Shown here in pieces: positions 4,855 to 58,140 of a stretch of 64,000 nucleotides of DNA. The stretch's first letter is position 1; every line of letters starts with the position of its first letter. This DNA is from Pelomonas sp. Root1217 (GTDB lineage Bacteria; Pseudomonadota; Gammaproteobacteria; Burkholderiales; Burkholderiaceae_C): assembly GCF_001425705.1 (NCBI RefSeq), contig NZ_LMDC01000012.1, positions 787,294 through 851,293 of the forward strand, in the 5' to 3' direction. Position numbers and translations under genes: made by a program. The notes beneath the pieces are model-generated. The model searched no databases and was not told the origin of the DNA. It worked only from the letters and a program-made list of their open reading frames with translations.

Positions 4855-7800
4855 ATGACTGACCCTCAACGCCGCAAATTCCTCCAGTATTCAGCCGCTC
4901 TTGGCGGCGCTGTTCCCTTGGCCGGTTGCGGTGGCGGAGGGGGGGAAGCCGTGGCCGAGGCGGCTGCGTCGGAAGGAGCGACCGTCACTGCGTCGGTGAT
5001 CAAGCTTCCCACGACCGCTCCTGCCCCGGCTCCCGTTCCGCCCCCCCCTCCGGCGCCGGCCCCGGTGCCCGCAGCTGTGGCCACCCCGACGCTCGGCCTG
5101 TTTACCGGCGCGATGCAGTTCAGCCTGGTCAGTACCAAGACCCAAGCCAAGGCGCCCTTCAGCCTGGGCTTCGCGTTCAAGCGCGGCGACATTCCGGCGG
5201 GCAGCACGGTGGGCTCCAGCTTGTCTGCGTTGCAGGTCACACCGCGAACGACCTGGCCTGACGGCTCCTTGAAGTTCGCCCAGATCGCCGGCTTTGCCGA
5301 CCTGACGGCCAACAGCCTGCTGACCGTGCGGCTGCGTCGCATTGCCGCAAGCGCTGGCAGCGCCGCTGTGCTGACCGTTGCGGACCTGAAGAAGACGGGC
5401 ATCACCGCCGAGGTTGGCGCGGGCGGCCTCGGCACAGCCAGCTTTGGCGCTGCCGACTGGGATGCGCCGCAGGCCACCTGGGTCAGCGGCGCGCAGATGT
5501 CGTCCTGGGTCTTTCGCAAGCCGGTGGGCAGTGACGCCCACCTGGTAGCCTGGTTGGAGGTGCGCCTGTTCGCCGGCGGCGCCGTCGAGATCCTGCCCTG
5601 GATCGAGAACGGCTACCTGATGGTGGCGGGCCCGACCAGCAAGGCGGCGACCTACACCTTCAAGATCAATGGCACGCAGCGCTTCTCGGCCGCCATCGAC
5701 CTGCCCCACCATTGCCGCACGGCGCTGATCAATGGCACGGCCCTGTCCTACTGGCTGGGCACCGACCCCGACGTGACGCCGCGCCATGACCTGGCTTATC
5801 TGCAGGCCACCGAGCAGGTGCCGACCTACAGCGCCCGTGTGGACGCGAATGGTGCCGTCGCGCAGTGGCTGGTGACCAGCTACACGCCGCTGGACAAGGC
5901 CAATTTCACGTACGCGAGCGACTCCATGGCGGCCACCGGCTACCAGGAACCCATCGGCCTGCTGCCGATGCATGACGCGCTTTATCTGACCTGCGAAAGC
6001 AGCAACACCTATGCGGCCGTCGTGCGCAACGGCTTCGCGGCCGGTCGCTATCCGCTGTTCTATCGCGACGAGAAGACCCAGCGCCCGATCCGCTTCTCCC
6101 AGTATCCCAACCTGGTGCTGCACAAGGACAGCCGCGTCAGTGACCTCGGCAGTTCAACGCGCAGCCAGTTCACGCCCCAGCCCACCGGCACGCAGTCGCC
6201 GCGCTGGGATTGCGCCCACAGCCCCTCGGTGGGTTATATGGCCTATCTGGTCACGGGGCGCTGGTACTTCATGGAGCAGGTGCAGTTCGCCGCCACGCTG
6301 AACTATCTGAGCAAGGCGGACGAGCCCAATATGCGCCGGGGCTCGCAGGGCCTGGTGCAGTCCTGCTTCGGCGGCTGGCAGACGCGTTCGGCCGCCTGGC
6401 AGTGGCGCACGCTGACGCAGGCGCTGAACGTGACGCCGGACGACGACACCGTGCTGCGCCAGGAGTTCATCAACTGCGTGCAGTCCAACATCGAGGACTT
6501 CCACGCCGTCTACGTCGCCCAGCCCAACAATCCCTATGGCTGGATCCAGCCGGGCGAGCCCTACGAGAACATCATGCAGTTCGGCGCGGTCTGGCAGCAG
6601 GACTTCGTCACCGCGGCCTTCGGCTACTCGTTGTCCATGGGCCTGCCGGTACCCGCAGCCGTCGAAACCAAGCACGCGGCCTTCTTCCGCTGGAAGGCGC
6701 GCAGCGCCGTCATGCGCCTGGGGCCGTCCACCGGCTTCTGGTACGTGAACGCGGCCGTGTACACGATGAGCATCTCGCCGGTCGCGGTGCCCGACTTCAA
6801 GACCGGTAAGGGGCCCTGGTATCCCAACGATGCCGCTGTCTACCTGGCCAGCTATGCCAGCCTGCCCGCCTGGTTCGGCGCCGTCGAAGGCAAGCTGGCG
6901 GGCGAGATCATGCCGGGCGACCGCGCGGCCTGGGGGAATCTGACGACGGCCATGGCCTATGCCGTCAGGCATGGCGTCGACGGCGCCGCCACCGCCTACC
7001 AGCGCCTCATTTCGGCCAGCAACTATCCGGCGTTGCGGGATGCCTTCAACAGCGCGCCGGTCTGGTCGGTGGCGCCGGCGCGGGTCATTCCAAGCTGGCT
7101 GGCCAGCAAGCCCTTGAACACCTGGTTCGAGATCCCCGGTACGGCCGGCGCGGGCGGCGCAGCGGTCGACGCCTACAGTGGCTTCGCCCTCAATGACCGC
7201 ACCAGCGAGATCATCATCGCTGCGGCCGGTGGCCATACCGATTCCTATGACAACCGGGTCGTGTCCATCGGCCTGGCGTCGGACACGCCGACCTGGAAGG
7301 TACGCCTGGCGGCCAGCAAGAGCTACGCCCAAAACGTCGCCCACTACACCGACGGCATGCCGTCCTCGCGCCACCTCTACAGCACGGCTCATTTCATTCC
7401 GCAGATCAACCGCCTGATGTTGTTTGGCGCGCGCGGTGTCTACGGTGCGTCCTGGGACTTCGCCAAGGTGGATGCCTTCAACCTCGATACCAACACCTGG
7501 GACAAGGCGGGCACCTGGGCCGACATGCCCTCGGGCTACTACGGCGCCGCGCAGATCCGCGCGACGGGCGAGGTCATCAGCACCGGCCTGAAGAAATGGT
7601 CGCCGGTCGACAAGAAGTGGACCGACCTCGTCAGCAACCCCGTCGGGGATACGGCGCGCTGGCCCATGGCCTACGACGCCCGCCGCAACCAGGTCTTCTG
7701 TCTGCAATGGGGTGACGGCCAGGGCTTCGACCCGCAACGCATGGTGGCCAGCCGCGTTCCGCTGGGCAGCGGGCAGCAGATCGCCGTCACCTTCAACGCC

Positions 7801-8106
7801 AGCAGTGCGCTGACGCAGTGGCAGAACGAAAAGCCGAGCTATGCCGCGATGGACTACGACCCTGACGGTGACCGCTTCCTGTTCTACAGCGGCCAGGGCG
7901 AAGCGGCGGGTCGTATCTATGTCGTCACGCCCAATGACAGCAATGTCTGGGACATGAGCCTGCTCAATGGTGGCAACCTGAAGATCGCGCCCACCCCCGA
8001 CAACGGCAGCGGCCTGCAGAACCGCATGCGCTACGTGCCGGCCCTGCGTGGCTTCGTGCTGCTGCCGCGGGGCAGCGCCAATCTCTACTTCCTGCGCACG
8101 GCCTGA
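4855..8106 (+). CDS. large Tat-exported lipoprotein with C-terminal kelch-like propeller
   Basis: The 1083-aa protein begins with a twin-arginine signal (QRRKFLQ) whose hydrophobic part ends in a lipobox LAGC with Cys25, followed by glycine and an Ala/Pro-rich linker to about residue 80. So it should be folded in the cytoplasm, exported by Tat and lipid-anchored. Residues about 80-320 look like beta-sandwich sequence. Residues about 430-700 are helical and Trp-rich (RWDCAHSPSVGYMAYL, YGWIQPGEPYENIMQFG), like an (alpha/alpha) toroid. From about 760 onward there are kelch-type blades (AAGGHTDSYDNRVVSI, FNLDTNTWDKAGTW). This resembles polysaccharide-active surface enzymes, but no family is recognised with confidence. 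It stands alone, divergent from the binding-protein gene. Confidence 0.75.
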   Translation: MTDPQRRKFLQYSAALGGAVPLAGCGGGGGEAVAEAAASEGATVTASVIKLPTTAPAPAPVPPPPPAPAPVPAAVATPTLGLFTGAMQFSLVSTKTQAKAPFSLGFAFKRGDIPAGSTVGSSLSALQVTPRTTWPDGSLKFAQIAGFADLTANSLLTVRLRRIAASAGSAAVLTVADLKKTGITAEVGAGGLGTASFGAADWDAPQATWVSGAQMSSWVFRKPVGSDAHLVAWLEVRLFAGGAVEILPWIENGYLMVAGPTSKAATYTFKINGTQRFSAAIDLPHHCRTALINGTALSYWLGTDPDVTPRHDLAYLQATEQVPTYSARVDANGAVAQWLVTSYTPLDKANFTYASDSMAATGYQEPIGLLPMHDALYLTCESSNTYAAVVRNGFAAGRYPLFYRDEKTQRPIRFSQYPNLVLHKDSRVSDLGSSTRSQFTPQPTGTQSPRWDCAHSPSVGYMAYLVTGRWYFMEQVQFAATLNYLSKADEPNMRRGSQGLVQSCFGGWQTRSAAWQWRTLTQALNVTPDDDTVLRQEFINCVQSNIEDFHAVYVAQPNNPYGWIQPGEPYENIMQFGAVWQQDFVTAAFGYSLSMGLPVPAAVETKHAAFFRWKARSAVMRLGPSTGFWYVNAAVYTMSISPVAVPDFKTGKGPWYPNDAAVYLASYASLPAWFGAVEGKLAGEIMPGDRAAWGNLTTAMAYAVRHGVDGAATAYQRLISASNYPALRDAFNSAPVWSVAPARVIPSWLASKPLNTWFEIPGTAGAGGAAVDAYSGFALNDRTSEIIIAAAGGHTDSYDNRVVSIGLASDTPTWKVRLAASKSYAQNVAHYTDGMPSSRHLYSTAHFIPQINRLMLFGARGVYGASWDFAKVDAFNLDTNTWDKAGTWADMPSGYYGAAQIRATGEVISTGLKKWSPVDKKWTDLVSNPVGDTARWPMAYDARRNQVFCLQWGDGQGFDPQRMVASRVPLGSGQQIAVTFNASSALTQWQNEKPSYAAMDYDPDGDRFLFYSGQGEAAGRIYVVTPNDSNVWDMSLLNGGNLKIAPTPDNGSGLQNRMRYVPALRGFVLLPRGSANLYFLRTA

Positions 8107-8160
8107 CATGCAGCCCCTCGTCCGGCCGCACACCGCTGAACGCGGTGCGACCGACCGGTC

Positions 8161-8250
8161 CCCCGGGGGGACGGCGATGCTTGCGGCATCGAACCGCAAG
8201 CACATCGCCAGCGCGGGCCGGCTCGGGAGCGGCCCAGCGCTCGGCCCGCA
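8161..8250. repeat. dispersed hairpin repeat, GCTTGCGG/CCGCAAGC type (copy 1)
   Basis: GCTTGCGG (8179-8186) and CCGCAAGC (8194-8201) form a perfect hairpin, extended by GCGATG/CATCGC outside with a two-base bulge. The flanks CCCCGGGGGG, GCGGGCCGGCT and GCGCTCGGCCCGC recur in the same order at 28104-28270. It lies between the lipoprotein gene and the hydrolase gene and may end transcription of the former. Confidence 0.75.
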
Positions 8251-8325
8251 AGATGTCGACCCCGTCGGCTGCGGCACCGGCACTGCGCCGCGGACAACTG
8301 AAGGTGGCGGCAGAATCGGTCCACG

Positions 8326-9216
8326 ATGTGGACCGACTTCCAACCGCTGACCGTTCAGCGTGACGGCGTCACGCTATTCGCCCGCCAGGGCGGCCCGTCG
8401 GATTCCGGCAGGCCGCCCTTGCTGCTTCTGCACGGCCACCCGCAGACCATGGCGATGTGGCACCGGGTTGCGCCGACCCTCGCGAAGACGCGACGCGTCG
8501 TGCTGATGGACCTGCGCGGCTATGGCGACAGCGACCGGCCGCCGGCCGGCGAGGGCAGCGCGGCCTATGCCAAGCGGGAGATGGCGAAGGACGCCGTGGC
8601 GCTGATGCAGTCCCTGGGCCATGAGCGCTTCGCCGTGCTCGCCCATGACCGCGGCGCACGCGTGGCCCACCGGCTGGCGCTGGACCATCCGCAGGCCGTG
8701 ACGCGGCTGATGCTGCTGGACATCGCCCCCACGCTGGCCATGTACGAAGGCACGACCGAGGCCTTTGCGCGCGCCTACTGGCACTGGTTCTTCCTGATTC
8801 AGCCCGCACCGCTGCCAGAGCGCCTCATCGAGGCCGACCCGATCGCCTACCTGCGCGACGGCATGGGGCGGCGCGGCGGCCACTTCTTCGACAAGCGTGC
8901 CTGGGCCGAGTACGAGCGCTGTTTCGTCCGCCCAGGAACGGCAGCCGCCGTCTGCGCCGACTACCGTGCCAGCGCCGGCATCGACCTCGAACATGACCGT
9001 GCTGACCGTGCCGCGGGCCGGCGTGTGAGCTCGCCGCTGCGTGTGCTTTGGGGCGCCAACGGGGTGGTGGGGCGTTGCTTTGATCCGCTTGCGCTCTGGC
9101 AGGCGGCGGCCGAGCACGTCAGCGGCCGCGCCGTCGACAGCGGCCACTACATCGCCGAAGAAGTGCCCGAGGTGGTGCTGGGCGAGGCGCAAGCCTTTTT
9201 CAACGAGGAGCAGTGA
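8326..9216 (+). CDS. alpha/beta hydrolase, fluoroacetate (haloacetate) dehalogenase family
   Basis: This 296-aa protein has the alpha/beta hydrolase fold with oxyanion motif LLHGHPQ and nucleophile in AHD108RGARVAH. The family marks of fluoroacetate dehalogenase are present in order: D108-R109, R112, H153-W154 in [12 protein letters not shown], and a C-terminal catalytic His in [12 protein letters not shown]. In characterised enzymes the two Arg bind carboxylate and His-Trp-Tyr hold the halide, so a haloacid or similar carboxylate is the likely substrate (family inference). Its stop overlaps the GTG of a dehydrogenase remnant (GTGA), suggesting a former two-gene operon. Confidence 0.8.
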
Positions 9217-9270
9217 CGCAGAAGATCGCCGTGATCGCTGGCGACGGCATCGGCCGAGAAGCCATGCCAG
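9213..9270 (+). pseudogene. N-terminal remnant of an isopropylmalate/tartrate dehydrogenase-type gene
   Basis: The GTG start overlaps the hydrolase stop (GTGA) and encodes [19 protein letters not shown]. This is the N-terminus of the isocitrate/isopropylmalate/tartrate dehydrogenase family, where I-A-V-I-x-G-D-G-I-G is a hallmark. After about 19 codons the similarity ends and the frame continues, without a stop, into the start of metH1. The rest of the dehydrogenase is absent. It looks like the scar of a deletion that joined metH1 to this locus. Confidence 0.65.
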
Positions 9271-9305
9271 CGGTCCGCGCGCCCGGAGCCTGCGAAAATG
9301 GCAGC

Positions 9306-10358
9306 ATGAAGTCCATTGCCTACACCCGCGCCCAGGGCCTGCCCGCCCTGCTCCAGCAACGCATCGCCGTGCTCGACGGCGCGATGGGCACCATGATCCA
9401 GCGCTACAAGCTCACCGAGGCCGACTACCGCGGCGAGCGCTTCAAGGACCATCACAAGGACTTGAAGGGCAACAACGAGATGCTGATGTTCACGCGGCCC
9501 GACGTGCTCAGCGAGATCCATGAGCAATATCTCGCCGCCGGCGCCGACCTCATCGAGACCAACACCTTCGGCGCGACCAGCGTTGCCCAGGAGGACTACG
9601 ACCTCGCTGGCCTGGCCTACGAGATGAACGTCGAGGCCGCCAAGCTGGCTCGCGCCGCCTGCGACAAGTATTCGACGCCCGACAAGCCGCGCTATGTCGC
9701 CGGCGCCCTCGGCCCGACGCCGCGCACCGCGTCCATCAGCCCCGACGTCAACGACCCCGGCGCCCGCAACGTCGACTTCGACACGCTGCGCGCGGCCTAC
9801 TACGAGCAGGCCAAGGGTTTGCTGGACGGCGGCTGTGACCTCTTCCTCGTCGAGACCATCTTCGACACGCTCAACGCCAAGGCGGCCATCTTTGCGCTCG
9901 ACGAGCTGATGGAAGACACCGGCGAGCGCCTGCCCGTCATCATCTCGGGCACCGTGACCGACGCCTCCGGCCGCATCCTGTCCGGCCAGACGGTCACTGC
10001 CTTCTGGCACTCGGTGCGCCATGCACGGCCCATCGCCATCGGCCTGAATTGCGCCCTGGGCGCGACGCTGATGCGGCCCTATATCGAGGAGCTGGCCAAG
10101 GTGGCGGGCGAGGTGGCGGTCAGCTGCTATCCCAACGCCGGCCTGCCCAACCCGATGAGCGACACCGGTTTCGACGAGACGCCGGACGTGACCGCGCGGC
10201 TGGTAGGCGAGTTCGCCAAAGCCGGCTTCCTGAACATCGCCGGCGGCTGCTGCGGCACCACGCCCGACCACATCGCGGCCATCGCCAAGGCCGTGTCGGC
10301 CTACAAGCCGCGTGTCAGCGGCGAGAAGTTCTTCAGCCAGATGCTGGCTGCGGCCTGA
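9306..10358 (+). CDS. metH: methionine synthase, homocysteine-binding module (split MetH, part 1)
   Basis: This 350-aa protein is the first module of cobalamin-dependent methionine synthase, which activates homocysteine on zinc. It has the barrel start [14 protein letters not shown] and the zinc cysteines in GLNCALG and [10 protein letters not shown]. It ends before the methyl-tetrahydrofolate domain. That part and the rest of the enzyme are a separate gene at 40424-43117, about 30 kb away. Start ATG 9306 is chosen because [25 protein letters not shown] fits the family, although an upstream in-frame GTG would add the dehydrogenase remnant. Unlike part 2, it has no SAH riboswitch in front. Confidence 0.92.
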
Positions 10359-10361
10359 GCC

Positions 10362-11510
10362 TCAGGAGGCGCGGCTCGGTGCGCTTGCCGGCTTGGCGCT
10401 GCGCCGCGGGCTCTCGCTGAATTCCGCCGGCGGCTTCATCAGCGCCGCATCGGGCTCGCCACGCTTGACCTTTTCCAGCCGGTAGTTCTGCTCGCCCATG
10501 CGCGGGTCGGCGTCGCGGCTCATGACCGTCAGCATCAGCTCGGGGCTGCGCCAGACCTCGCGGGTGCTGACGATGGGCTTCTCGTTGCCGATCTTGCCGG
10601 CCTCGATGGTCCAACTGGTGCGCTCGCCGGTGACCTTGAGACCGTCGATCTCCTTGGGCGCCAGCACCGTCGTCGTGCCGCCCTCGCGCGGCAGCATGGG
10701 GCCAGGCAGCAGCAGCGGCATGGGCGGCACCGGCGGCGTGGGCACCATCAGCGGAGTGGGTGGGGCGGGCATGGCAGGCGGCGCGGGCATTTCGCTGGCG
10801 CGGATGACGCGCAGCTCACGGCGACGCTCGACGGCGCTGGCACCCGGTGCGGGTGTTGTCATCAGCTCCTGCTCGATGACGATGCCCGGCTCACCGGCCA
10901 TCGCCCGGGCGCGCACGCGCTCCGCATCCACGCTGCGCGCCCGCTCGGCAACCCGACCTCCCCATTCCTTCCAGCGCGCCGCCTGTTCCTTCATGCGCTC
11001 GCCCCAGTCCTGCATCGACGCCTCCCAGGCGGCATGGGCCGCTGCGTCGGCACCAGGTGCCCAGGCCGCGTTGCTGCGCAGCCGCTGCACGCGCTTCTGG
11101 TCGGGGTAGACAACCCAGCTCTCCTTGGCCACCGGATCGTTCAGGTAGATGACCTTGGGGCCGCCCTCGCGCTGCACCTCGCGGCGCGTGCGGCCCTCGC
11201 CGTCGCGGCAGAGCTGACTCTGCTGCTTGCGCACGATGCGGTTGCCGTCGCCCAGCGTCTGTACGTTCTCATGCACGGCGGTGGCGCAGTAGGGCGCGCC
11301 CTTGACGACGCGTTCGCTCTCCAGCTCGCGGCCGGCGAAGCTCAAGGCCTGGTCGCCCAACGCGATGCGCACGGGCATGTCGGACAGGGCGATCTGCACG
11401 CTGCGCTCGATGTCCCGTTCGAAATCGCGCTCGATCAGGCGGTCGGTCTCCAGCGCGTTGGCCGAGGCTGCCAGGGCCAACAGCGCCAGGCCAGTGATGG
11501 ATGTCTTCAT
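10362..11510 (-). CDS. periplasmic protein of unknown function, third gene of ECF sigma operon
   Basis: The 382-aa product has a signal peptide (MKTSITGLALLALAASANA) and no further membrane segment. Residues about 70-150 contain FAGRELESERVVKGAPYCATAV and WVVYPDQKRVQRLRS. A proline/methionine-rich linker at about 240-285 separates this from a C-terminal region with APKEIDGLKVTGERTSWTIEAGKIG. It is 19 bases downstream of the anti-sigma gene on the same strand and is probably co-transcribed with the sigma factor, so it may be the sensed or secreted partner. No family is recognised. Confidence 0.75.
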   Translation of the reverse strand: MKTSITGLALLALAASANALETDRLIERDFERDIERSVQIALSDMPVRIALGDQALSFAGRELESERVVKGAPYCATAVHENVQTLGDGNRIVRKQQSQLCRDGEGRTRREVQREGGPKVIYLNDPVAKESWVVYPDQKRVQRLRSNAAWAPGADAAAHAAWEASMQDWGERMKEQAARWKEWGGRVAERARSVDAERVRARAMAGEPGIVIEQELMTTPAPGASAVERRRELRVIRASEMPAPPAMPAPPTPLMVPTPPVPPMPLLLPGPMLPREGGTTTVLAPKEIDGLKVTGERTSWTIEAGKIGNEKPIVSTREVWRSPELMLTVMSRDADPRMGEQNYRLEKVKRGEPDAALMKPPAEFSESPRRSAKPASAPSRAS

Positions 11511-11529
11511 GTCGTTCTCCGTCGTCAAA

Positions 11530-12039
11530 TCAGTTCAGGATGCGCACGGCCAGCACCTGGCCGCTCGGGTTCAGCATCAGCTCGGCGCGCACCGTTTCGT
11601 CGGCGCGAGCGGCATCAAAGGGCAGGCCCAGCAGCGCCAGGCGCTCGCGCGGCAGCTCGGTGGGCTGCAGCCAAACAGCGGCGCTGCGGCCGGCCGTCAG
11701 TGCGGCCTGGAACTCGCGCTCGGACACCAGCGGGATGAAGCCGCTGCCGGCCGTGGCCGCCAGGGCGGTCTGGCTGCCCGGCGGGTCGAGCAAAAGCATG
11801 GCGCAGAGCAGCACGGCGGCAGTGGCGCCAAGCGCGCCACTGCCCCAGGCGAGGCGGCGCAGCCAGTGCGGCTCATGGGCCTCGGCCGTCTGGGCCGCCA
11901 GGCGGCGCACGCGCTGCAGGTGCTGCTGCTCGGTGAGGCGGGCCAGTACGGCGGCGTCCTGTTCCGCGCCGGGTTGCAGCTTGGAAAAGTCCGCACGGGC
12001 CGGCAGCAGCCAGGTCGGGGTGTCGGGGTGGGTGCTCAT
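11530..12039 (-). CDS. probable anti-sigma factor, single-pass membrane protein
   Basis: This 169-aa protein has a cytoplasmic N-terminal half rich in charged helices (residues 1-60), one membrane segment at about 65-90 (GSGALGATAAVLLCAMLLL) and a periplasmic C-terminal domain. The position after an ECF sigma gene, with start and stop overlapping (ATGA, 12036-12039), is the normal arrangement of sigma/anti-sigma pairs. No zinc HxxxCxxC motif is seen, so it is not a ZAS-type anti-sigma factor. The assignment rests on topology and context. Confidence 0.72.
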   Translation of the reverse strand: MSTHPDTPTWLLPARADFSKLQPGAEQDAAVLARLTEQQHLQRVRRLAAQTAEAHEPHWLRRLAWGSGALGATAAVLLCAMLLLDPPGSQTALAATAGSGFIPLVSEREFQAALTAGRSAAVWLQPTELPRERLALLGLPFDAARADETVRAELMLNPSGQVLAVRILN

Positions 12040-12647
12040 GGTCGTTCTCCAACGGCGAGCAGGTCGGCCAGCCGCTGGCGGGCGCGGTGCAGGCGGGTGC
12101 GCAGCGTGTCGACGCTGACGCCGGCAATCGCCGCAGCGTCTTCATAGCTGCGCTCCTGCAGGTCCACCAGCACGATGGCCTCGCGCTGCGGCCAGCTCAG
12201 CCGGCGGATGGCGGCCCAGAGGCCGTCCTGCTGCTGGCTTTGATTCAAACGCGTGTCGCTGCTGGGCATGAGCTCGGCGGTTTCGTCGGTGTCGAGCGAA
12301 TCGTCCAGCGGCACATGGCGTCGTGCGTCGCGCCACTGGTTCAGCAGCTGGTGCCTGGCCATGCCGGCGAGGTAGGCGCCGAGCGAGCCGCGGCCGGCAT
12401 TGAAGGCCTGCGGGCCGCGCAGCAGCTGGGCGAAGGCTTCCTGCACGGCATCCAGCGCTGTCGCCTCGTCGCCGGCCAGCGCCAGCGCATAGCGGTAGAC
12501 CGAGCCACTCTCGCGCCGGTACACCAGCGCCAGCGCGTCAGCGTCACCATCGGCGACACGCGCCAACAGCGCGACCTCGTCACCCGACGCCGAGGCGGCC
12601 GGCGCGACAAAGCCGAGGCGGGTCAGCCAGCTCATGTCGGGCAGCAT
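12036..12647 (-). CDS. ECF-type RNA polymerase sigma factor
   Basis: The 203-aa protein has region 2 (residues about 25-95; DALALVYRRESGSVYRYAL, ALDAVQEAFAQLLRG, LGAYLAGMARHQLLNQWRD) and region 4 (about 135-195; RLSWPQREAIVLVDLQERSY, GVSVDTLRTRLHRARQRL). It should redirect RNA polymerase in response to an envelope signal released by the next gene. It heads a three-gene operon running to 10362. The promoter must lie in the short gap before the divergent VOC gene at 12785. Confidence 0.9.
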   Translation of the reverse strand: MLPDMSWLTRLGFVAPAASASGDEVALLARVADGDADALALVYRRESGSVYRYALALAGDEATALDAVQEAFAQLLRGPQAFNAGRGSLGAYLAGMARHQLLNQWRDARRHVPLDDSLDTDETAELMPSSDTRLNQSQQQDGLWAAIRRLSWPQREAIVLVDLQERSYEDAAAIAGVSVDTLRTRLHRARQRLADLLAVGERP

Positions 12648-48612: not shown

Positions 48613-49014
48613 TCAGCCCGCCTGGCCGGGCAGGCCCCGGCGGAGCTGGATGGCCTCGGCGACATGGGCGCTGCCAATCGCCACCGCCCCCGCCAGATCG
48701 GCCACCGTGCGGGCCACGCGCAGCACGCGGTGGAAGCCGCGCGCCGACCAGCCCAGGCGCTCGGCCGATCGCTCCAGCAAAGCCTTGGCCGCGGGCTCCA
48801 GCACCGCATGCTCGGCAAGGTCCTGGGCCTGCAGCTGGGCGTTGGCCACGCCCTGGCGCGCCACGGCCCGCTCGCGCGCGGCGGCGACCCGTTCCGCGAC
48901 GACGGCACTGGGCTCGCCCGGGGCGAGATCCTGCAGGTCGCGTGGCGGCACAGCAGCCACTTCGATGAGCAGATCGAGGCGGTCGAGGAAGGGGCCGCTA
49001 AGCCGGCCCTGGTA
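48613..49014 (-). pseudogene. comM: 3' fragment of comM (YifB-type Mg-chelatase-like ATPase)
   Basis: The last 133 codons of comM are intact: YQGRLSGPFLDRLDLLIEVAAVPP through the helical lid (SARGFHRVLRVARTVADLAG) to the normal C-terminus. Upstream of Tyr (codon at 49012-49014) the expected zinc-like and AAA+ parts are missing, and unrelated DNA begins. The full protein is about 500 residues, so roughly three quarters is absent. This marks the edge of inserted DNA; comM is a known integration hotspot in Acinetobacter. Confidence 0.85.
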
Positions 49015-49076
49015 GTGTGGTGAGCCACAAATAGCGGCCGGTGACCTGCGAAGTGAATCAACCACTTGGCGACTTT

Positions 49077-49140
49077 CTTTGATCGGCTCGTTTATGGATG
49101 CGTTCAAGGTTAACAAGTCTTGCCCGTAAGCCGATCAAAG
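49077..49140. repeat. inverted repeat at island edge
   Basis: CTTTGATCGGC (49077-49087) and GCCGATCAAAG (49130-49140) are perfect 11-bp inverted repeats separated by 42 bp. They lie 63 bp inside the comM breakpoint. They could be a recombination site, a transposon terminal structure or a regulatory hairpin; no integrase gene is in the window. Confidence 0.7.
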
Positions 49141-49166
49141 TTGGTGTGAGCCCTACTGGATCTTGT

Positions 49167-49325
49167 TGGAGGGCGCGCAAAGAGACCGGGGAACTGTATG
49201 GTGCGCGCCAAAGGCTCCTGCCATACAATTTGCCCACTCGCTGCAGGAAACGTTGGCTTTGCCTCCACCCGCAGACAGACGCTAGTTCGAGAAGCCCATC
49301 CTTACCCGGTGGGCTTTTTTCTTTT
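49167..49325 (+). ncRNA. putative structured RNA with H-type pseudoknot and terminator
   Basis: TGGAGG (49167-49172) can close against CCTCCA (49262-49267). Within it, GGCGCGC (49172-49178) pairs with GCGCGCC (49203-49209), and TGTATGG in its loop (49195-49201) pairs with CCATACA downstream (49221-49227), an H-type pseudoknot. AAGCCCA/TGGGCTT (49292-49316) followed by a T-run forms a rho-independent terminator. No protein-like frame covers this part of the 49015-49730 gap. It could be an independent RNA or a leader of the hxs operon. Confidence 0.5.
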
Positions 49326-49730
49326 CGCGGACGACTCGGGTCGCGCGGGACTGCGTCGTAGCACCCGGCCTCTCACGACCCCAGGGTCACGCCGCGCTGG
49401 ACCAGATGACGAGCCTGCGCCATCGCACTGGCGCTGCGGCCACCCGTACCAAGGAATGCAGGCGGCCTTCGCTCCAGTCGAAAAGCAGCCAACCAGGCGA
49501 GAGAAGTCGCGTGAGTAGCAGTGCTACAGCCCTCGTCAGTGAGGCGGCCGCTCCTTGGCTGCCTGAGGTCGGACAGATGAGGGAGTCGTCCTAACCTTGT
49601 GGAAAGTTGGCTTCTGTCCGCAATCACCCGCACACGCAGGTCTGTATGCAGATGTATCCTGCCAGGCATTCGGAGAGCTGACCGCGTCAGGCGACGCGCA
49701 TTCAATGCAGCCGCCGGGGAGGTTTAAGCC

Positions 49731-51170
49731 GTGTCCTATGCATCGGCACCATTGCCGTTCAGGACTCGCTGCGTCGCGGGTCGTGACGATAGATTGGTGG
49801 TCTCCGACACCGGCGACTACGTGTTCTTGTCCGGGCGAGAACTGGCAACGCTCGAAACGGCGCCAGACGCCCTGAATTTGGAATTGCGCGCGAGTTTGCG
49901 TTCCAAGTTCATCCTTGTCGATCAAGGCGCCCAGCCGGGCATGGAGCGCCTTCGGCGATCTCGCATCGCCGCTCGAAAAGAGGTGACGACACAGGGGCCA
50001 GCGCTTCACATCATTGTTCCCACGCTGCAGTGCGCGCATTCCTGCAAGTACTGCCAGGTGTCGCGCTCGCTTGATGCGACCAGCTTCACTATGAGCCATG
50101 AAGCGCTTGATGCCGCTTGCGACACCGTTCTGCAGAGCTCAGCGAGGCTGTTGACGGTGGAGTTTCAGGGCGGCGATCCGCTCCTTCGCTTCGACCTGAT
50201 CGAACGCGCCGTGGAAAGGGTCTTGGCCTCGCCAGAGCTCAACGGCCGCCGAGTCCGCTTCGTCGTTGCATCGACCTTGCACCAACTGACCGACGGAATG
50301 TGCGATTTCATGGCGCGCCACGACATGGTGCTGTCCACCAGCATCGACGGGCCAGCTGAGCTGCACAACCGGAACCGGCCAATACCCACGCGAGATTCCT
50401 ACGAACGAACTCTCGCGGGCATCGGACTGGCAAGAAGTCGACTCGGCCACGACAAGGTGTCCGCGCTGATGACAACAACCCGCGAGTCCCTGGCGCAGCC
50501 AGAAGTCATCGTCGACGAGTACGTGAAGCTCGGCTTCTCGGAGATCTTCCTTCGCCCGCTGAGTGCTTACGGCTTTGCGAAGCGGAACCAACGGCATCTT
50601 GGCTACAGCCTCGAAGACTTTCAGCGGTTCTATGCCCGTGCGTTCGAACGTGTGCTGGACTGGAATTCCCGCGGCGTCGCGCTGCGAGAGGTTTACGCGT
50701 CCATCATCCTTAACAAGCTTCTTTCGCCGTTTGATGCCGGCTACGTCGACTTGCAGAGTCCATGCGCATCGGGTCGTGGCGTGCTGGTCTACAACTACGA
50801 CGGCTTTGTCTACCCAAGTGATGAAGCGAGGATGGTGCTCGAGTCCGGCGACGCCAGCTGGCGCATGGGCCGCATCGGTGACCCCTTGAGTTCCCTCTTG
50901 AATTCCGACGCGGCCCGACTAATCGCCAGCGCCGGTGATTCGCACAGCGCTGAGGGCTGTCGGGATTGCGCCTATCAACCGTTCTGCGCCCCGAACCCCA
51001 TCGACTCCCAGGCGCAGTACGGAAAACCAGACGCCTCGCCGCTGCTGACTGAACACTGTCAGCGCCACATGTGGCTGTTCGACAATTTCATCGCGCGCGT
51101 CGAAGACGCTGAGCCCCAGCAGCTCGACATGTTCCATCGCTGGGCCGGCGCAGCAGGAGCAGCTGCATGA
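49731..51170 (+). CDS. hxsB: His-Xaa-Ser system radical SAM maturase HxsB
   Basis: The 479-aa protein has the radical SAM cluster motif CAHSCKYC (Cys101, 105, 108), the SAM-binding FQGGDP (145-150) and a C-terminal Cys-rich SPASM-like part (SPCASGRG, CRDCAYQPFCAPNP, HCQRHMW) for auxiliary clusters. The N-terminus (FRTRCVAGRDDRLVVSDTGDYVFLS) is typical of HxsB. It should modify the HxS-repeat peptide encoded two genes on. The GTG start has GGGGAGG 8 bases upstream. The stop overlaps hxsC (ATGA). The chemistry of the modification is not established. Confidence 0.88.
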   Translation: MSYASAPLPFRTRCVAGRDDRLVVSDTGDYVFLSGRELATLETAPDALNLELRASLRSKFILVDQGAQPGMERLRRSRIAARKEVTTQGPALHIIVPTLQCAHSCKYCQVSRSLDATSFTMSHEALDAACDTVLQSSARLLTVEFQGGDPLLRFDLIERAVERVLASPELNGRRVRFVVASTLHQLTDGMCDFMARHDMVLSTSIDGPAELHNRNRPIPTRDSYERTLAGIGLARSRLGHDKVSALMTTTRESLAQPEVIVDEYVKLGFSEIFLRPLSAYGFAKRNQRHLGYSLEDFQRFYARAFERVLDWNSRGVALREVYASIILNKLLSPFDAGYVDLQSPCASGRGVLVYNYDGFVYPSDEARMVLESGDASWRMGRIGDPLSSLLNSDAARLIASAGDSHSAEGCRDCAYQPFCAPNPIDSQAQYGKPDASPLLTEHCQRHMWLFDNFIARVEDAEPQQLDMFHRWAGAAGAAA

Positions 51171-52291
51171 GAACCGTTCGGTGCGAGCTTCAACCTGGAG
51201 TGGCGCCTGGCGTGCACAGGGTGGTCAGCGCCGATGAGTTGGCTGGGGTGTGGACGCCCGAGCTACGGTTTCTTGTTGTTGCGAACACCCCGGAAGAAAA
51301 AGCCCAGGCCGAACGGCTCGTGGGCAGCGAGGTGAAGAACGTGGCTTGGGCCGCCAGCGCGGATCTCATGGCCGGCGACGTGGTGACCATCGACACGGCT
51401 CGAAGCAAGGTGGTGGTCCTCTATCGAGAGTCCGACCGGCACCACTCGCTTTTCGCCACTAACCGATGCAACAGCCTCTGCCTGATGTGTTCGCAACCGC
51501 CGACGCCACAGGCGGATCCATGGTTGATTGAAGAGGCCATGGTCACGCTGTGTCACATGCGTACCTCCCCCGCTCACCTGGGCATCACAGGTGGCGAGCC
51601 CACGCTGCTGGGAGGAGACCTTGTCCGACTGCTCCGGACGGTGCGTGCGCTTCACCCAGCCACTTGCATTGAAGTGCTGACGAACGGTCGCCGTCTTGCG
51701 GATCCGGCGCTCGCTTCCATGCTGTTTGAGCCGCCCGTGGAAAACGTCAGCTGGCTGGTCCCGCTTTATGGCCATGCCAGCTATCTGCACGACTTCGTCG
51801 TACAGGCGCCCGGCGCGTTCGATCAAACCATCGGTGGACTGCTTGCGTTGCAAGAGCACGGGCAGCCTATCCAACTGCGGATCGTCTTGATCGAGCCAGT
51901 TCTGCAGCACCTGAAGGATCTGGCCGACTTCATAGCAAGGAACTTGCCCTTCGTGCGCGAGGTGGCCTTGATGGCCAGTGAGCCCATCGGCTTTGCCCTG
52001 GCGAACCGTGAGCTATGCGAAGTGGACTTGCTGGACTGGACCGAAGTGCTGACCGGCGCAGTCGCCATCTTCAGGCGGTACGGGCTGCCAGTACTGTTCA
52101 TGAACACGCCGCTGTGCGCTCTGCCGACGGGCCTGCGCGGCTTTGCCCATCAAAGCATCTCCGACTGGAAGAACGTCTTTGCAGCTGAGTGTGAAAACTG
52201 CGCTGCGAAGCAACAGTGCTCCGGCCTGTTCGCGTGGCATGAGCGCGGCTGGAAGCCGACTCGAATTCAACCGATCCAGGAGCTCGTCTGA
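51167..52291 (+). CDS. hxsC: His-Xaa-Ser system radical SAM maturase HxsC
   Basis: The 374-aa radical SAM protein has CNSLCLMC (Cys101, 105, 108), TGGEPTLLGG and a C-terminal cysteine set (ECENCAAKQQCSGLFAWHERG), the usual HxsC ending. It has the characteristic N-terminal domain before the barrel (FLVVANTPEEKAQAERLVG). It is paired with HxsB and is presumed to act with it on HxsA. The start overlaps the hxsB stop and its own stop overlaps the hxsA start by one base (TGATG). Confidence 0.88.
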   Translation: MRTVRCELQPGVAPGVHRVVSADELAGVWTPELRFLVVANTPEEKAQAERLVGSEVKNVAWAASADLMAGDVVTIDTARSKVVVLYRESDRHHSLFATNRCNSLCLMCSQPPTPQADPWLIEEAMVTLCHMRTSPAHLGITGGEPTLLGGDLVRLLRTVRALHPATCIEVLTNGRRLADPALASMLFEPPVENVSWLVPLYGHASYLHDFVVQAPGAFDQTIGGLLALQEHGQPIQLRIVLIEPVLQHLKDLADFIARNLPFVREVALMASEPIGFALANRELCEVDLLDWTEVLTGAVAIFRRYGLPVLFMNTPLCALPTGLRGFAHQSISDWKNVFAAECENCAAKQQCSGLFAWHERGWKPTRIQPIQELV

Positions 52292-52986
52292 TGAGCAAGT
52301 TCATTCGCAACCTGGCGCTGTTCGTGGCCGGCCTGCCGCTGATCACACCGCGTGCGTCCGACGGCGCTGTAGCCGGGCCCGGCGCCGCCCCAGCACCGGA
52401 GCCGAGCATCGTTCCCTTGCGCCCGCTGAACTTCGATCGAGAAAACCTCTTCGCGGGACATCGATCCCACTCGAGCCACAGCTCGCATTCCAGCCATTCG
52501 TCGCACTATTCAGGATCCAGCAGCTCTTATGCGGCACCACCAGCGCCGGCCGCTTCAAAGCCGGCCCTCAACCTTGCAGCCGACCCGGCACCGTCGCCTG
52601 TGCCTGCTAGGGTTTCCGTGCCATCCCCGCCGGCGCCGATTCGTCTACTTGACGAGCCCAGTCAACCTAGCCACGTGCTGGCGCCATCAGTGGCGTTCCC
52701 TGCGCGGCAGGCTGGATCCAATCTCGGCGGTGCATCTGTATACAACGGCACGGCGGCGGCCCAGCCCGCACCTACTTTGAGCTTGGGCGAGAAACGCAAG
52801 CTGCAGGTGATGCGAGTGCAAATTGCGCTCACCCGGCTCGGGCTTTACAGCAGTCAGGTTGACGGTGTCCTCAACGCGGAGACGCAGGAGGCGCTCAAGC
52901 ACTTTCAGCAATTGAAGGGGCTCCCTCGATCCGGGACGATGACGACGCCCACGCTGAACGCGCTGGGAGTGCCTGCCGCGAGTTAG
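52291..52986 (+). CDS. hxsA: His-Xaa-Ser repeat protein HxsA, presumed modification substrate
   Basis: The 231-aa protein has a signal-like N-terminus (MSKFIRNLALFVAGLPL), then six consecutive His-Xaa-Ser triplets at residues 57-74 (HRS, four HSS, HYS). A Pro/Ala/Ser-rich linker follows, then a C-terminal peptidoglycan-binding-type domain (about 170-228; MRVQIALTRLGLYSSQVDGVLNAETQEALKHFQQ). The repeat is the likely target of HxsB/HxsC; the last domain suggests anchoring to the cell wall (inference). The gene is coupled to hxsC. A decayed second copy is at 57632-58111. Confidence 0.9.
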   Translation: MSKFIRNLALFVAGLPLITPRASDGAVAGPGAAPAPEPSIVPLRPLNFDRENLFAGHRSHSSHSSHSSHSSHYSGSSSSYAAPPAPAASKPALNLAADPAPSPVPARVSVPSPPAPIRLLDEPSQPSHVLAPSVAFPARQAGSNLGGASVYNGTAAAQPAPTLSLGEKRKLQVMRVQIALTRLGLYSSQVDGVLNAETQEALKHFQQLKGLPRSGTMTTPTLNALGVPAAS

Positions 52987-55943: not shown

Positions 55944-55998
55944 CTGTCCGCACGTGGCCACTATTCGCCTGCCTTTTATTCGACAAGGAGTATGGGAT

Positions 55999-56307
55999 TT
56001 GAAAGTTCTTACTGATGCAGATAGCGGCGCAGGCCGAAATATGCTGGCGAATGCTGCCCCACCCAAGGTTATTGACGTAGATGCCGCATCCCTCGCAACA
56101 AAAGTTCAGGCAATTCTCGGAGAACTAGAAGGTGCCTTGGGCTCTGCCAATGAGGCCATGCAGAAATTCAAGGTGTCAGAGGTTTCATTCAATTTGGCGA
56201 TCACATCTTCCGGCGAGGTGTCGTTGATGTCGATTCTGAAAGCAAACACAAGCATTCAAGCTGGCATCCAGGTAAAAATCCAGCCCAAAGACCCTCCAAA
56301 GGAATAG
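55999..56307 (+). CDS. Pepco-like (peptidase co-occurring) small protein
   Basis: The 102-aa product has a helical first half (ASLATKVQAILGELEGALG) and a strand-rich second half (SEVSFNLAITSSGEVSLMSILKANTSIQAGIQVKI). The pattern V-x-F-x-L-x-I-x-x-x-G-x-V-x-L followed by a repetitive strand pair resembles small proteins encoded beside peptidases in predicted conflict systems (Pepco/CU044_2847 type). The TTG start is chosen for AAGGAG 8 bases upstream; a GTG at 55954 is the alternative. A zinc metallopeptidase gene follows after 43 bases. Confidence 0.55.
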   Translation: MKVLTDADSGAGRNMLANAAPPKVIDVDAASLATKVQAILGELEGALGSANEAMQKFKVSEVSFNLAITSSGEVSLMSILKANTSIQAGIQVKIQPKDPPKE

Positions 56308-56350
56308 AGCGTCCTGCGATACAGGTTCGTCAAAGACTCGGGAGCTTGCC

Positions 56351-57574
56351 TTGGCTAATGAAGATCTTCGGTCTGCTTACAAGCAACTTCTCGCGAGCGA
56401 GGGTATCCCCCTCGACGAATTTGATCCTGAATTCCTGTACAAGCTATTCAAGTTCGAAGATGAGATGAACCGGCGCCGAGCGCCCGATCGGCAGCCGCTT
56501 GATGACACGGTCCTGCAACAGCGTGCCATTGACGTCGCAACGTCCGGCGGCGTGTGGAACCATCGAATCCAAGCTTTGGTGCCTTCGGTAGCACTGGCAG
56601 CGGATGCAAGGATCAATCACCTGAATGAGGCCTACGGGTCCGCGTTCGAAGTCCCTGCAGAAGAGTTTCTATTGTTCGGAGAATTTCCGACGCTGCAGTT
56701 CAACGCGGCTGTCGAGCCGACGGAATTTGGCTACCTCGTATTGATAAATAGCGGTTTGGCTCAGTTGCTTATGGAAGTGGGCATGCTTCTTTCGGAGGCG
56801 AGACCGTTTGATTTGCCGGCCGACATCTTAGAACGCCGCGTTGACTATGCATCTGAGATGGCGATCGGCATGGTGCGCAAATATCGGGAGAAGAAAAACT
56901 TCCTCCTTGTGCGGGCGTCCGGCGGGCGGCAGGATGAAACGTCGTATGACCTGCGCTTCAATTCATTTGTATTGGAAGTGACGCTGGTCTTTGCGATCGC
57001 TCATGAGATCGCCCACATTGTTTTGGGTCACTGTGGAGGCGGGCGAAAGCATCATCTAATCGGCAGTGCAGAGTTTTTGCATGCAGACATACCCCTCGGA
57101 TGGAAGGAGGAGTTGGCAGCGGATTCCCTCGCCGCGATGATTGTGGAAACGTGGTTCTTGAACAGGCTGAGCAACAATGACCGCGTCGAAGATGAACTCG
57201 TCGACTACTTTGTTTCTCATGGGTTCTTTGCGCCGTTGTTCTTCTTTAGCTGCGAACGCCTTGTCAACACTTGGCCCGATCCACAGGCGGATGCCGCTGG
57301 CAGTTCGACGCATCCGCCGCCGACTCTTAGGCAACGCCTGCTCGCTCAGCAGATGGCCGGCACTTCACATGCGCATCGTGCGGCGCTGTTGCAGACCCGG
57401 CCTTACCGCACCTTCCTGAAGCGAGTAGAGATGAAGGCCGCCGAGGCGTTTCTCGATGGGACCCACGAAGGTCGCGAAGGTATGGTGGAGGGCTCGTCGG
57501 ATGAACTCCTGAGACTGCTCGAAACCCTGGCAGAAGAAGTCAGCGAGGAAGGCAGTCAGCGGCAGGACAACTGA
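56351..57574 (+). CDS. HExxH zinc metallopeptidase
   Basis: The 407-aa soluble protein has AIAHEIAHIVLGHC (HExxH, preceded by a hydrophobic helix), EELAADSLA about 40 residues later as the third ligand motif, and STHPPPTLRQR near the end, an arrangement like M48-type peptidases. No signal peptide or membrane helix is obvious, so it is probably cytoplasmic. TTG is used as start with GGGAG upstream. Together with the Pepco-like gene it may form an effector/regulator pair (inference). GC is lower than in the core chromosome. Confidence 0.72.
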   Translation: MANEDLRSAYKQLLASEGIPLDEFDPEFLYKLFKFEDEMNRRRAPDRQPLDDTVLQQRAIDVATSGGVWNHRIQALVPSVALAADARINHLNEAYGSAFEVPAEEFLLFGEFPTLQFNAAVEPTEFGYLVLINSGLAQLLMEVGMLLSEARPFDLPADILERRVDYASEMAIGMVRKYREKKNFLLVRASGGRQDETSYDLRFNSFVLEVTLVFAIAHEIAHIVLGHCGGGRKHHLIGSAEFLHADIPLGWKEELAADSLAAMIVETWFLNRLSNNDRVEDELVDYFVSHGFFAPLFFFSCERLVNTWPDPQADAAGSSTHPPPTLRQRLLAQQMAGTSHAHRAALLQTRPYRTFLKRVEMKAAEAFLDGTHEGREGMVEGSSDELLRLLETLAEEVSEEGSQRQDN

Positions 57575-57631: not shown

Positions 57632-58111
57632 GCAGGCCTTATGCCGCGCCGGCACCGGCACCGGCACCGGCACCGGCACCGCCGGCGTCAAGTCCGACAC
57701 TAAACCTGGTTCCGGACCCCGCGCCGGCGCCGCTGCCGTCCCGGGTGTCCGCGTCACCGCCGCCGGCACCGAGTCGTTTGCTCGATGAGCCCAGCACATC
57801 TAGTTCAACGCTGACGGCATCGGCGGCTGGCCATGCCGGGCAGGCCGGATCGAGCCTCGACGGAGCTTCCCGCTACAGCGGCGCAGCCGTGGCCCAGCCC
57901 AGCCTAAGCCTAGATGAGAAGCGCAAGTTGCCGGTGATGCGGTGCAGATTGCGCTCACCAGGTTGGGGCTTTACAGCAAGCAGGTAACGGCATCCTGAAC
58001 GCGGAGACCCAAGAGGCGCTCAAGCACTTCCAACAATTGAAGGGACTCCGGCGATCGGGAACTATGACGACGCCAACACTCAACGCGCTTAGTGTCCCAG
58101 TGGCCAACTAA
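57632..58111 (+). pseudogene. hxsA: decayed second copy of hxsA
   Basis: The sequence follows hxsA residue by residue from SYAAP through RLLDEPS, LSLDEKRKLPVMR, ALTRLGLYS and NAETQEALKHFQQLKG to TPTLNALSVPVAN and a stop. Two single-base deletions, one in GTGATGCGGTGCAG (an A lost) and one in CAAGCAGGTAACGG, break the frame. The N-terminus and the His-Xaa-Ser repeats are missing. A run of GGCACC hexamers expands the Pro-Ala linker at about 57650-57690. The gap 57575-57631 has no gene. Confidence 0.85.
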
Positions 58112-58140
58112 GGCGCACTTGTCCAAGCGTTGAGTCAATA

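Follow-up and report, generated by a model that had tools for sequence, protein, structure and literature searches.

The window, that is, the whole 64,000-nucleotide stretch of Pelomonas sp. Root1217 analyzed here (contig NZ_LMDC01000012.1, positions 787,294 to 851,293), carries an operon of the His-Xaa-Ser (HxS) peptide-modification system, in which two radical S-adenosylmethionine (SAM) maturases, HxsB and HxsC, accompany a precursor protein, HxsA, and no hxsD, the fourth gene of the canonical system, is recognized. The locus apparently represents a clade-wide and putatively functional three-gene variant of the system. The genes follow one another head to tail on the + strand in the order hxsB-hxsC-hxsA at 49731-52986, neighbors overlapping or abutting:

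49731..51170, + strand: hxsB, radical SAM maturase (TIGR03978, 513.6 bits, cut-off 370)
51167..52291, + strand: hxsC, second radical SAM maturase (TIGR03977, 340.1 bits, cut-off 267.9)
52291..52986, + strand: hxsA, precursor/substrate protein of 231 amino acids (TIGR03979, 150.8 bits, cut-off 121.65)
52459..52512, + strand: the six His-Xaa-Ser triplets of hxsA, with LRPLNFDRENLFAG directly ahead
52804..52965, + strand: PG_binding_1 domain of HxsA, residues 172-225 (Pfam PF01471, E 2.8e-11)

A first-pass annotation had read this region as a His-Xaa-Ser locus with a CxxxCxxC motif at residues 101-108 of both enzymes and a precursor combining six HxS triplets with a peptidoglycan-binding-type end, and each of these elements is borne out: HxsB, HxsC and HxsA all score above their NCBIfam cut-offs, the motif occupies residues 101-108 in both enzymes (C101, C105 and C108 in each), and the end of HxsA matches PG_binding_1. 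Further conserved cysteines stand in the C-terminal region of HxsB (C410, C413, C419 and C443), while HxsC has four more conserved cysteines close to its C terminus; all seven HxsC cysteines are present in 54 of the 54 aligned rows, the truncated row of locus L033 having been excluded beforehand. In PADLOC, both enzymes matched viperin weakly (HxsB at 0.0026, HxsC at 7.9e-5); these matches were read as reflecting the common radical SAM fold, and a viperin identity was set aside. HxsA, the sole intact TIGR03979 match in the genome, is laid out as a charged hydrophobic N-terminal segment that, judged by eye, looks like a signal peptide, followed by LRPLNFDRENLFAG, the triplets HRS HSS HSS HSS HSS HYS, a Pro/Ala/Ser-rich linker and the PG_binding_1 domain; this domain content suggests a placement at the cell wall. 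The Ser codons of the triplets are drawn from both TCN and AGC, which suggests a repeat maintained in the protein sequence and not a simple DNA repeat.

The usual place of hxsD corresponds in the window to the following stretch:

49018..49730, + strand: stretch 5' of hxsB, in which no HxsD-like open reading frame (ORF) is recognized

The lack of hxsD beside hxsB, already claimed in the first-pass annotation, holds and can be extended to the genome as a whole (6.65 Mb, 99.7% complete): the HxsD model, TIGR03976, had no match in it at E<=10. In the ten nearest genomes, too, this model has no match above its cut-off, and nine of them have none at E<=1, the tenth, G106, having two (E 0.058 and 0.91). 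Two more profiles were used, a first one built from 18 HxsD sequences of D-containing relatives and a wider one of 19 rows that includes diverged forms; the wider profile has no match at E<=5 in the window's genome. Two stop-to-stop ORFs of 102 residues each lie near the start of the window's hxsB, one stopping 137 bases ahead of it and the other overlapping it by about 145 bases, and neither resembles HxsD in a set of 62 ORFs from 17 loci (one at E 6.9, the other unlisted). With neither the first profile nor a profile of diverged HxsDs does a fragment from the 900 bases 5' of the window's hxsB stand among the best 11 of 214 fragments, the best of any locus reaching E 2.2, or 0.33 with the diverged profile (at L031). 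A homolog hidden nearby under another reading was thus sought among both ORFs and fragments, and none was recognized; on these searches, together with that of the whole genome, the idea of an hxsD that is merely unannotated was rejected. Fusion of hxsD to hxsB, hxsC or hxsA was rejected as well, as the stop-to-stop ORFs of the region give no HxsD score and the window's HxsB and HxsC fill their family models; the open frame before the HxsC motif is of ordinary length, counting 118 residues in the window and 91 to 225 residues in 54 of 55 loci, with 23 in L040. Since no HxsD was found, the locus is filed as a three-gene variant and not as a member of the canonical four-gene system.

The system is sparsely distributed. 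An hxsB above the cut-off occurs in 2 of 100 relatives, 6 of 399 genomes of the family, 5 of 399 of the order, 5 of 369 of the class and 14 of 398 of the phylum (plus one at E<=1e-40), in overlapping samples, the window's genome being counted in each; the 100 relatives include 19 further genomes of its genus, all without an hxsB above the cut-off. Phage records yielded two hxsB matches at E<=1e-10 with 35-37% identity, and a first viral scan two weak loci (L101 and L102). Closely read were 45 hxsB loci, made up of the window, 10 genome contigs, 25 whole genomes and 9 plasmids; an hxsB match occurs in 415 plasmid records, of which ten were looked at, and the tenth of these, L118 of Nostoc, annotated A2-D-B-C, stands outside the 45. 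A clear HxsD lies 5' of hxsB in 26 of the 45 loci (18 of these built the first profile), an HxsD-like ORF takes this place in 6, and none is recognized in 13.

In a maximum-likelihood tree of the 45 HxsB rows, from which loci of the viral collection were excluded, the window falls in a clade of 14 rows (support 100/99); in a second tree, with eight viral-collection loci added, the clade grows to 16 rows (100/100). The second tree leaves out L111 and L114, which start inside hxsB, and L112 and L113, which belong to a divergent group and whose ORFs in the hxsD slot were judged by eye only. In the labeling of the trees, L082 counts as lacking hxsD because its slot ORF has no profile support (E 1.8), while L032 counts as HxsD-like despite a slot ORF that also lacks profile support. 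Members of the window's clade are beta- and gammaproteobacteria, such as Achromobacter, Acidovorax, Noviherbaspirillum, Pseudoduganella, Alloalcanivorax and Halopseudomonas; 11 of its 16 rows have no recognized hxsD and 5 have an ORF in its place. The three-gene form is common to a clade, which extends the earlier observation made on a single locus. It also occurs outside that clade, at L041, a Roseomonas plasmid.

Within the clade, one sub-branch (89/58) unites L068, L039, L108 and L110, each with a slot ORF, with L038, a D-less locus grouped as the sister of L068 (95/84); L032 and ten D-less rows, among them the window, make up the other sub-branch (98/91). The slot ORFs of L068 and L039 overlap the start of hxsB and reach E 4.8e-4 and E 0.021, respectively, against the HxsD profile in the set of 62 ORFs, each outscoring all 20 of its own shuffles; those of L110 (E 0.010) and L108 (E 0.019) were scored in a set of only five. 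At L110 (3608-5419), a contig of the viral collection, the HxsD-like sequence and HxsB share one open frame as sequenced. One Asp and one Arg, in a D-x3-R pattern, are invariant in 19 aligned HxsD and HxsD-like rows (L032 excluded). We read hxsD in this clade as having diverged and then been lost at least twice, since the tree calls for no fewer than two losses, the first in L038 and the second in the sub-branch of the window.

At the D-less loci L034, L038 and L097, a same-strand ORF, placed by position and not by family search, ends less than about 170 bases ahead of hxsB, too little for hxsD. Flanks of 14 loci, compared at unequal lengths and leaving out ORFs that overlap the operon, have no ORF family widely in common at E<=1e-4 besides B, C and A, the only links being L031-L033, L035-L048 and L068-L097; another common gene in replacement of hxsD was rejected on this comparison. 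The description of the locus as a minimal set is supported only insofar as the genes common to the D-less loci are B, C and A.

For the D-less pair L036/L037, the ratio of nonsynonymous to synonymous substitution rates (dN/dS) is 0.08 for hxsB, 0.09 for hxsC and 0.10 for hxsA, against 0.05-0.18 in two D-containing pairs, which shows purifying selection on these aligned sequences; the D-less pair L031/L048 gives 0.08 for hxsC, with hxsB and hxsA saturated, and the window compared with L097 gives 0.16-0.20 at near-saturated synonymous sites. By eye, all 14 readable HxsA of the clade retain the pattern L-x-x-LN-x4-NL(F/Y)A(G/A)HRSHSSH (the window, L048, L031, L032, L034-L038, L068, L097, L098, L108 and L110), a set that omits L033, which is cut, and L039, whose HxsA lies on another contig. 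Just 3' of hxsA, L108 carries at 7595-8962 a gene that by eye resembles a di-heme cytochrome c peroxidase (MauG-type).

Structures were predicted for HxsB and HxsD. In the AlphaFold model of the window's HxsB (17 sequences, predicted local distance difference test score, pLDDT, 88.5), an N-terminal beta-beta-beta-alpha-alpha part (about residues 1-83) precedes a radical SAM barrel, and the cysteines of the C-terminal region form a third part. The model matches CteB, anSME, TigE and ChlB best among PDB entries, and it aligns with CteB (PDB 5why) over 463 columns with a template modeling (TM) score of 0.64, a root mean square deviation of 7.8 and 18% identity; in its model, HxsB resembles maturases of ribosomally synthesized and post-translationally modified peptides (RiPPs). 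CteB carries a RiPP recognition element (RRE), and the N-terminal part of HxsB is RRE-like in predicted topology. Canonical HxsD is modeled (7 sequences, pLDDT 90.1) as beta-alpha-beta-beta followed by one long helix. A Foldseek search of this model against the PDB returned nothing at E<=0.001, the best match standing at E 0.0086 and the top rows being Pcc1 and designed ferredoxin folds. The beta-alpha-beta-beta-alpha order differs from the topology of an RRE, and the idea that HxsD is a PqqD-like RRE was rejected on the AlphaFold topology and the lack of a strong Foldseek match. As it is made beside HxsB and once in one frame with it, HxsD is likely an accessory factor for HxsB.

Taken together, these data make it probable, in our judgment, that the operon in the window belongs to a branch of the His-Xaa-Ser radical SAM peptide-modification system that works without HxsD. 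Within this reading, we infer a course of substrate recognition, modification, export and anchoring, along with a role for HxsD, as follows. HxsA would be made with its hydrophobic N-terminal export segment; before it leaves the cytoplasm, HxsB would bind it through the RRE-like N-terminal part, at the conserved LRPLNxxxxNLFA stretch just ahead of the repeat. The HxS repeat would then be modified by HxsB and HxsC, both of which combine a radical SAM motif with a second set of cysteines. After export, the C-terminal domain of modified HxsA would anchor it to peptidoglycan. The small beta-alpha-beta-beta-alpha protein HxsD, which other branches make beside HxsB, would likely serve HxsB there as an accessory factor; in the window's branch, it would have diverged, come to lie in frame with HxsB at a single locus and been lost at least twice, with no common replacement.

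Several observations weigh against this reading. Taken one by one, the HxsD-like ORFs display weak homology: the L039 profile score of 18.9 barely exceeds the best of all 60 shuffles (18.0), and the L032 slot ORF, at E 0.83, lies under its own shuffles and has no profile support. A fragment 5' of the D-less L031 is the one that reaches E 0.33 with the diverged HxsD profile. The first tree supports the grouping of all ten D-less crown rows only modestly (92/63) and the second does not resolve it, both trees were flagged for long branches and odd composition, though outside the window's clade, and L039, for which the first piece of HxsB was used, fills only 39% of the columns. Synonymous divergence approaches saturation in L036/L037, and in L031/L048 it can be used for only one gene out of three. 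Substrate binding by the N-terminal part of HxsB is proposed from the predicted fold, and a sequence search with this part alone gave no RRE match.

It may be that HxsD is present, too diverged or too distant in the genome for any profile, in which case the system would be of the usual four-gene kind. Diverged HxsDs can indeed escape TIGR03976, which has no match in G220 and G108, while both are matched by the wider profile, which holds their own rows. The L032 slot ORF, recognized by no profile, and the two 102-residue ORFs near the window's hxsB start could be taken in the same sense, but the latter have no HxsD score. The wider profile, which finds matches at E<=5 in 5 of 17 genomes (four of which supplied rows to it, while the fifth, G127, did not and forms an independent control) and nothing in the other 12, finds nothing in the window's genome. 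With little room for hxsD at three D-less loci and no unknown gene in common among the D-less loci, we consider a concealed HxsD unlikely.

Alternatively, the HxS segment could be mainly a metal-binding or structural repeat of the wall, the enzymes acting elsewhere on HxsA or on another protein. A His-rich repeat coupled to a peptidoglycan-binding domain would suit such a role, but HxS repeats accompany hxsB and hxsC in two precursor types, HxsA and HxsA2, which by eye are otherwise little alike, and this makes the proposal decidedly improbable in our view.

The operon forms the first genes at one end of a 27.4-kb insert in comM, whose 3' part borders the hxsD place; a second, broken copy of hxsA lies further along:

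48640..49017, - strand: 3' part of comM (TIGR00368), interrupted by the insert
about 57640..58112, + strand: second hxsA copy, broken, 5'-truncated and frame-shifted, lacking leader and HxS segment (TIGR03979, E 1.7e-6)

The 5' part of comM lies at G000:C12:863720-864844, about 27.4 kb beyond the 3' part, and comparison with the intact comM of three relatives places the junctions at ...GCGCTACC / TGTGGGG ... CCACA / CTACCAGGGCCGG.... A 5-base duplication, CTACC, flanks the insert on both sides, TGTGG stands at both ends, and the intact genes have the insertion site once, as CTACC, TTACC or TTATC. A TniQ protein (E 9.9e-14) is encoded inside. TGTGG ends, a 5-base target duplication and TniQ are Tn7 traits, and the insert is thus Tn7-like; no TnsA, TnsB or TnsC was found among those insert ORFs, a part of the whole, that were scanned with Pfam. 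The rest of the insert encodes an HNH protein, a Pepco-domain protein, an HExxH protein, tetratricopeptide repeat (TPR) proteins, an IS66 remnant and GTPase-associated conflict genes; PADLOC gave one PrimPol match, in a TPR protein. According to PMC10293859, Tn6022-like and Tsy elements are known to insert into comM. In G012, of the same genus, comM is also split (C1:782668-783240 and 839520-840422, about 56 kb apart), at another place in the gene. At 55954-57574 of the window, the Pepco-domain protein is followed by a 407-residue protein that lacks a Pfam match and by eye has an HExxH motif, and the two may form a peptidase module; L100, in the same insert, carries at 5566-12446 GAP1-N1, DO-GTPase1, DO-GTPase2, GASH and a GAAD-phosphoesterase protein, a GTPase-associated conflict set. 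The second hxsA copy is a 3' part, ungapped blocks of its downstream portion being 80-86% identical to hxsA. At L042, plasmid 4 of Aeromonas salmonicida, a D-B-C-A operon (5634-11170) is separated from an annotated TnsA-domain protein by one annotated DUF5334 gene, so that hxs genes are linked to Tn7-type genes at this locus as well.

That the operon is decaying cargo, no longer working after the loss of hxsD, would fit its place in a mobile insert beside a broken hxsA copy and an L039 hxsB that reads as two ORFs in different frames, but is very doubtful in view of three intact genes with their conserved cysteines kept, a low dN/dS in a D-less pair, similar to that of D-containing pairs, and a D-less state spanning several genera.

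More tentatively, a functional HxsD-independent branch could amount to a system naturally reduced to three genes, whose two radical SAM enzymes would suffice to install multiple modifications on the HxS repeat of a peptidoglycan-held protein, carried as cargo by viruses and Tn7-like elements, with HxsD caught in divergence, fusion to HxsB and repeated loss. A branch without hxsD constitutes a natural deletion experiment, in which comparison of D-containing, D-fused and D-less sets could reveal the role of HxsD, and the three-gene set is the simplest His-Xaa-Ser set to reconstitute. Among RiPPs, to our knowledge, it would be unusual for a protein modified by radical chemistry to be tethered to the cell wall.

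The system itself was reportedly described by Haft and Basu. In the open-licence literature (most subscription papers lying outside this scope), no characterization of His-Xaa-Ser chemistry or role was found; the available parts of PMC9062424, PMC8446631 and PMC6537148 only mention the system. The window's hxsB, hxsC and hxsA belong to it (TIGR03976-TIGR03979) by their scores above the curated cut-offs, and the B-C-A order recurs in the D-B-C-A operon of Aeromonas salmonicida plasmid 4; by contrast with the four-gene system, both the locus and the genome are without a recognized hxsD. HxsA2 loci, with HxsB and HxsC related to those of the window, differ in a short precursor that has its repeat at the C-terminal end and, by eye, no peptidoglycan-binding domain. 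With precursor types sorted by eye, hxsD is present in 21 of the 21 HxsA2-type loci read, and its divergence or loss is seen only at loci that have a long precursor with a peptidoglycan-binding-type end, namely the window's clade, L041 and the divergent group (L081, L083 and L084, with L082 lacking support); given how strongly the trait clusters on the tree, the association is correlative and does not amount to a test. Among other maturases, CteB and its kin provide the best fold match of the HxsB model, but CteB acts on another precursor and shares 18% identity, and at the window's locus two radical SAM enzymes stand beside a single substrate.

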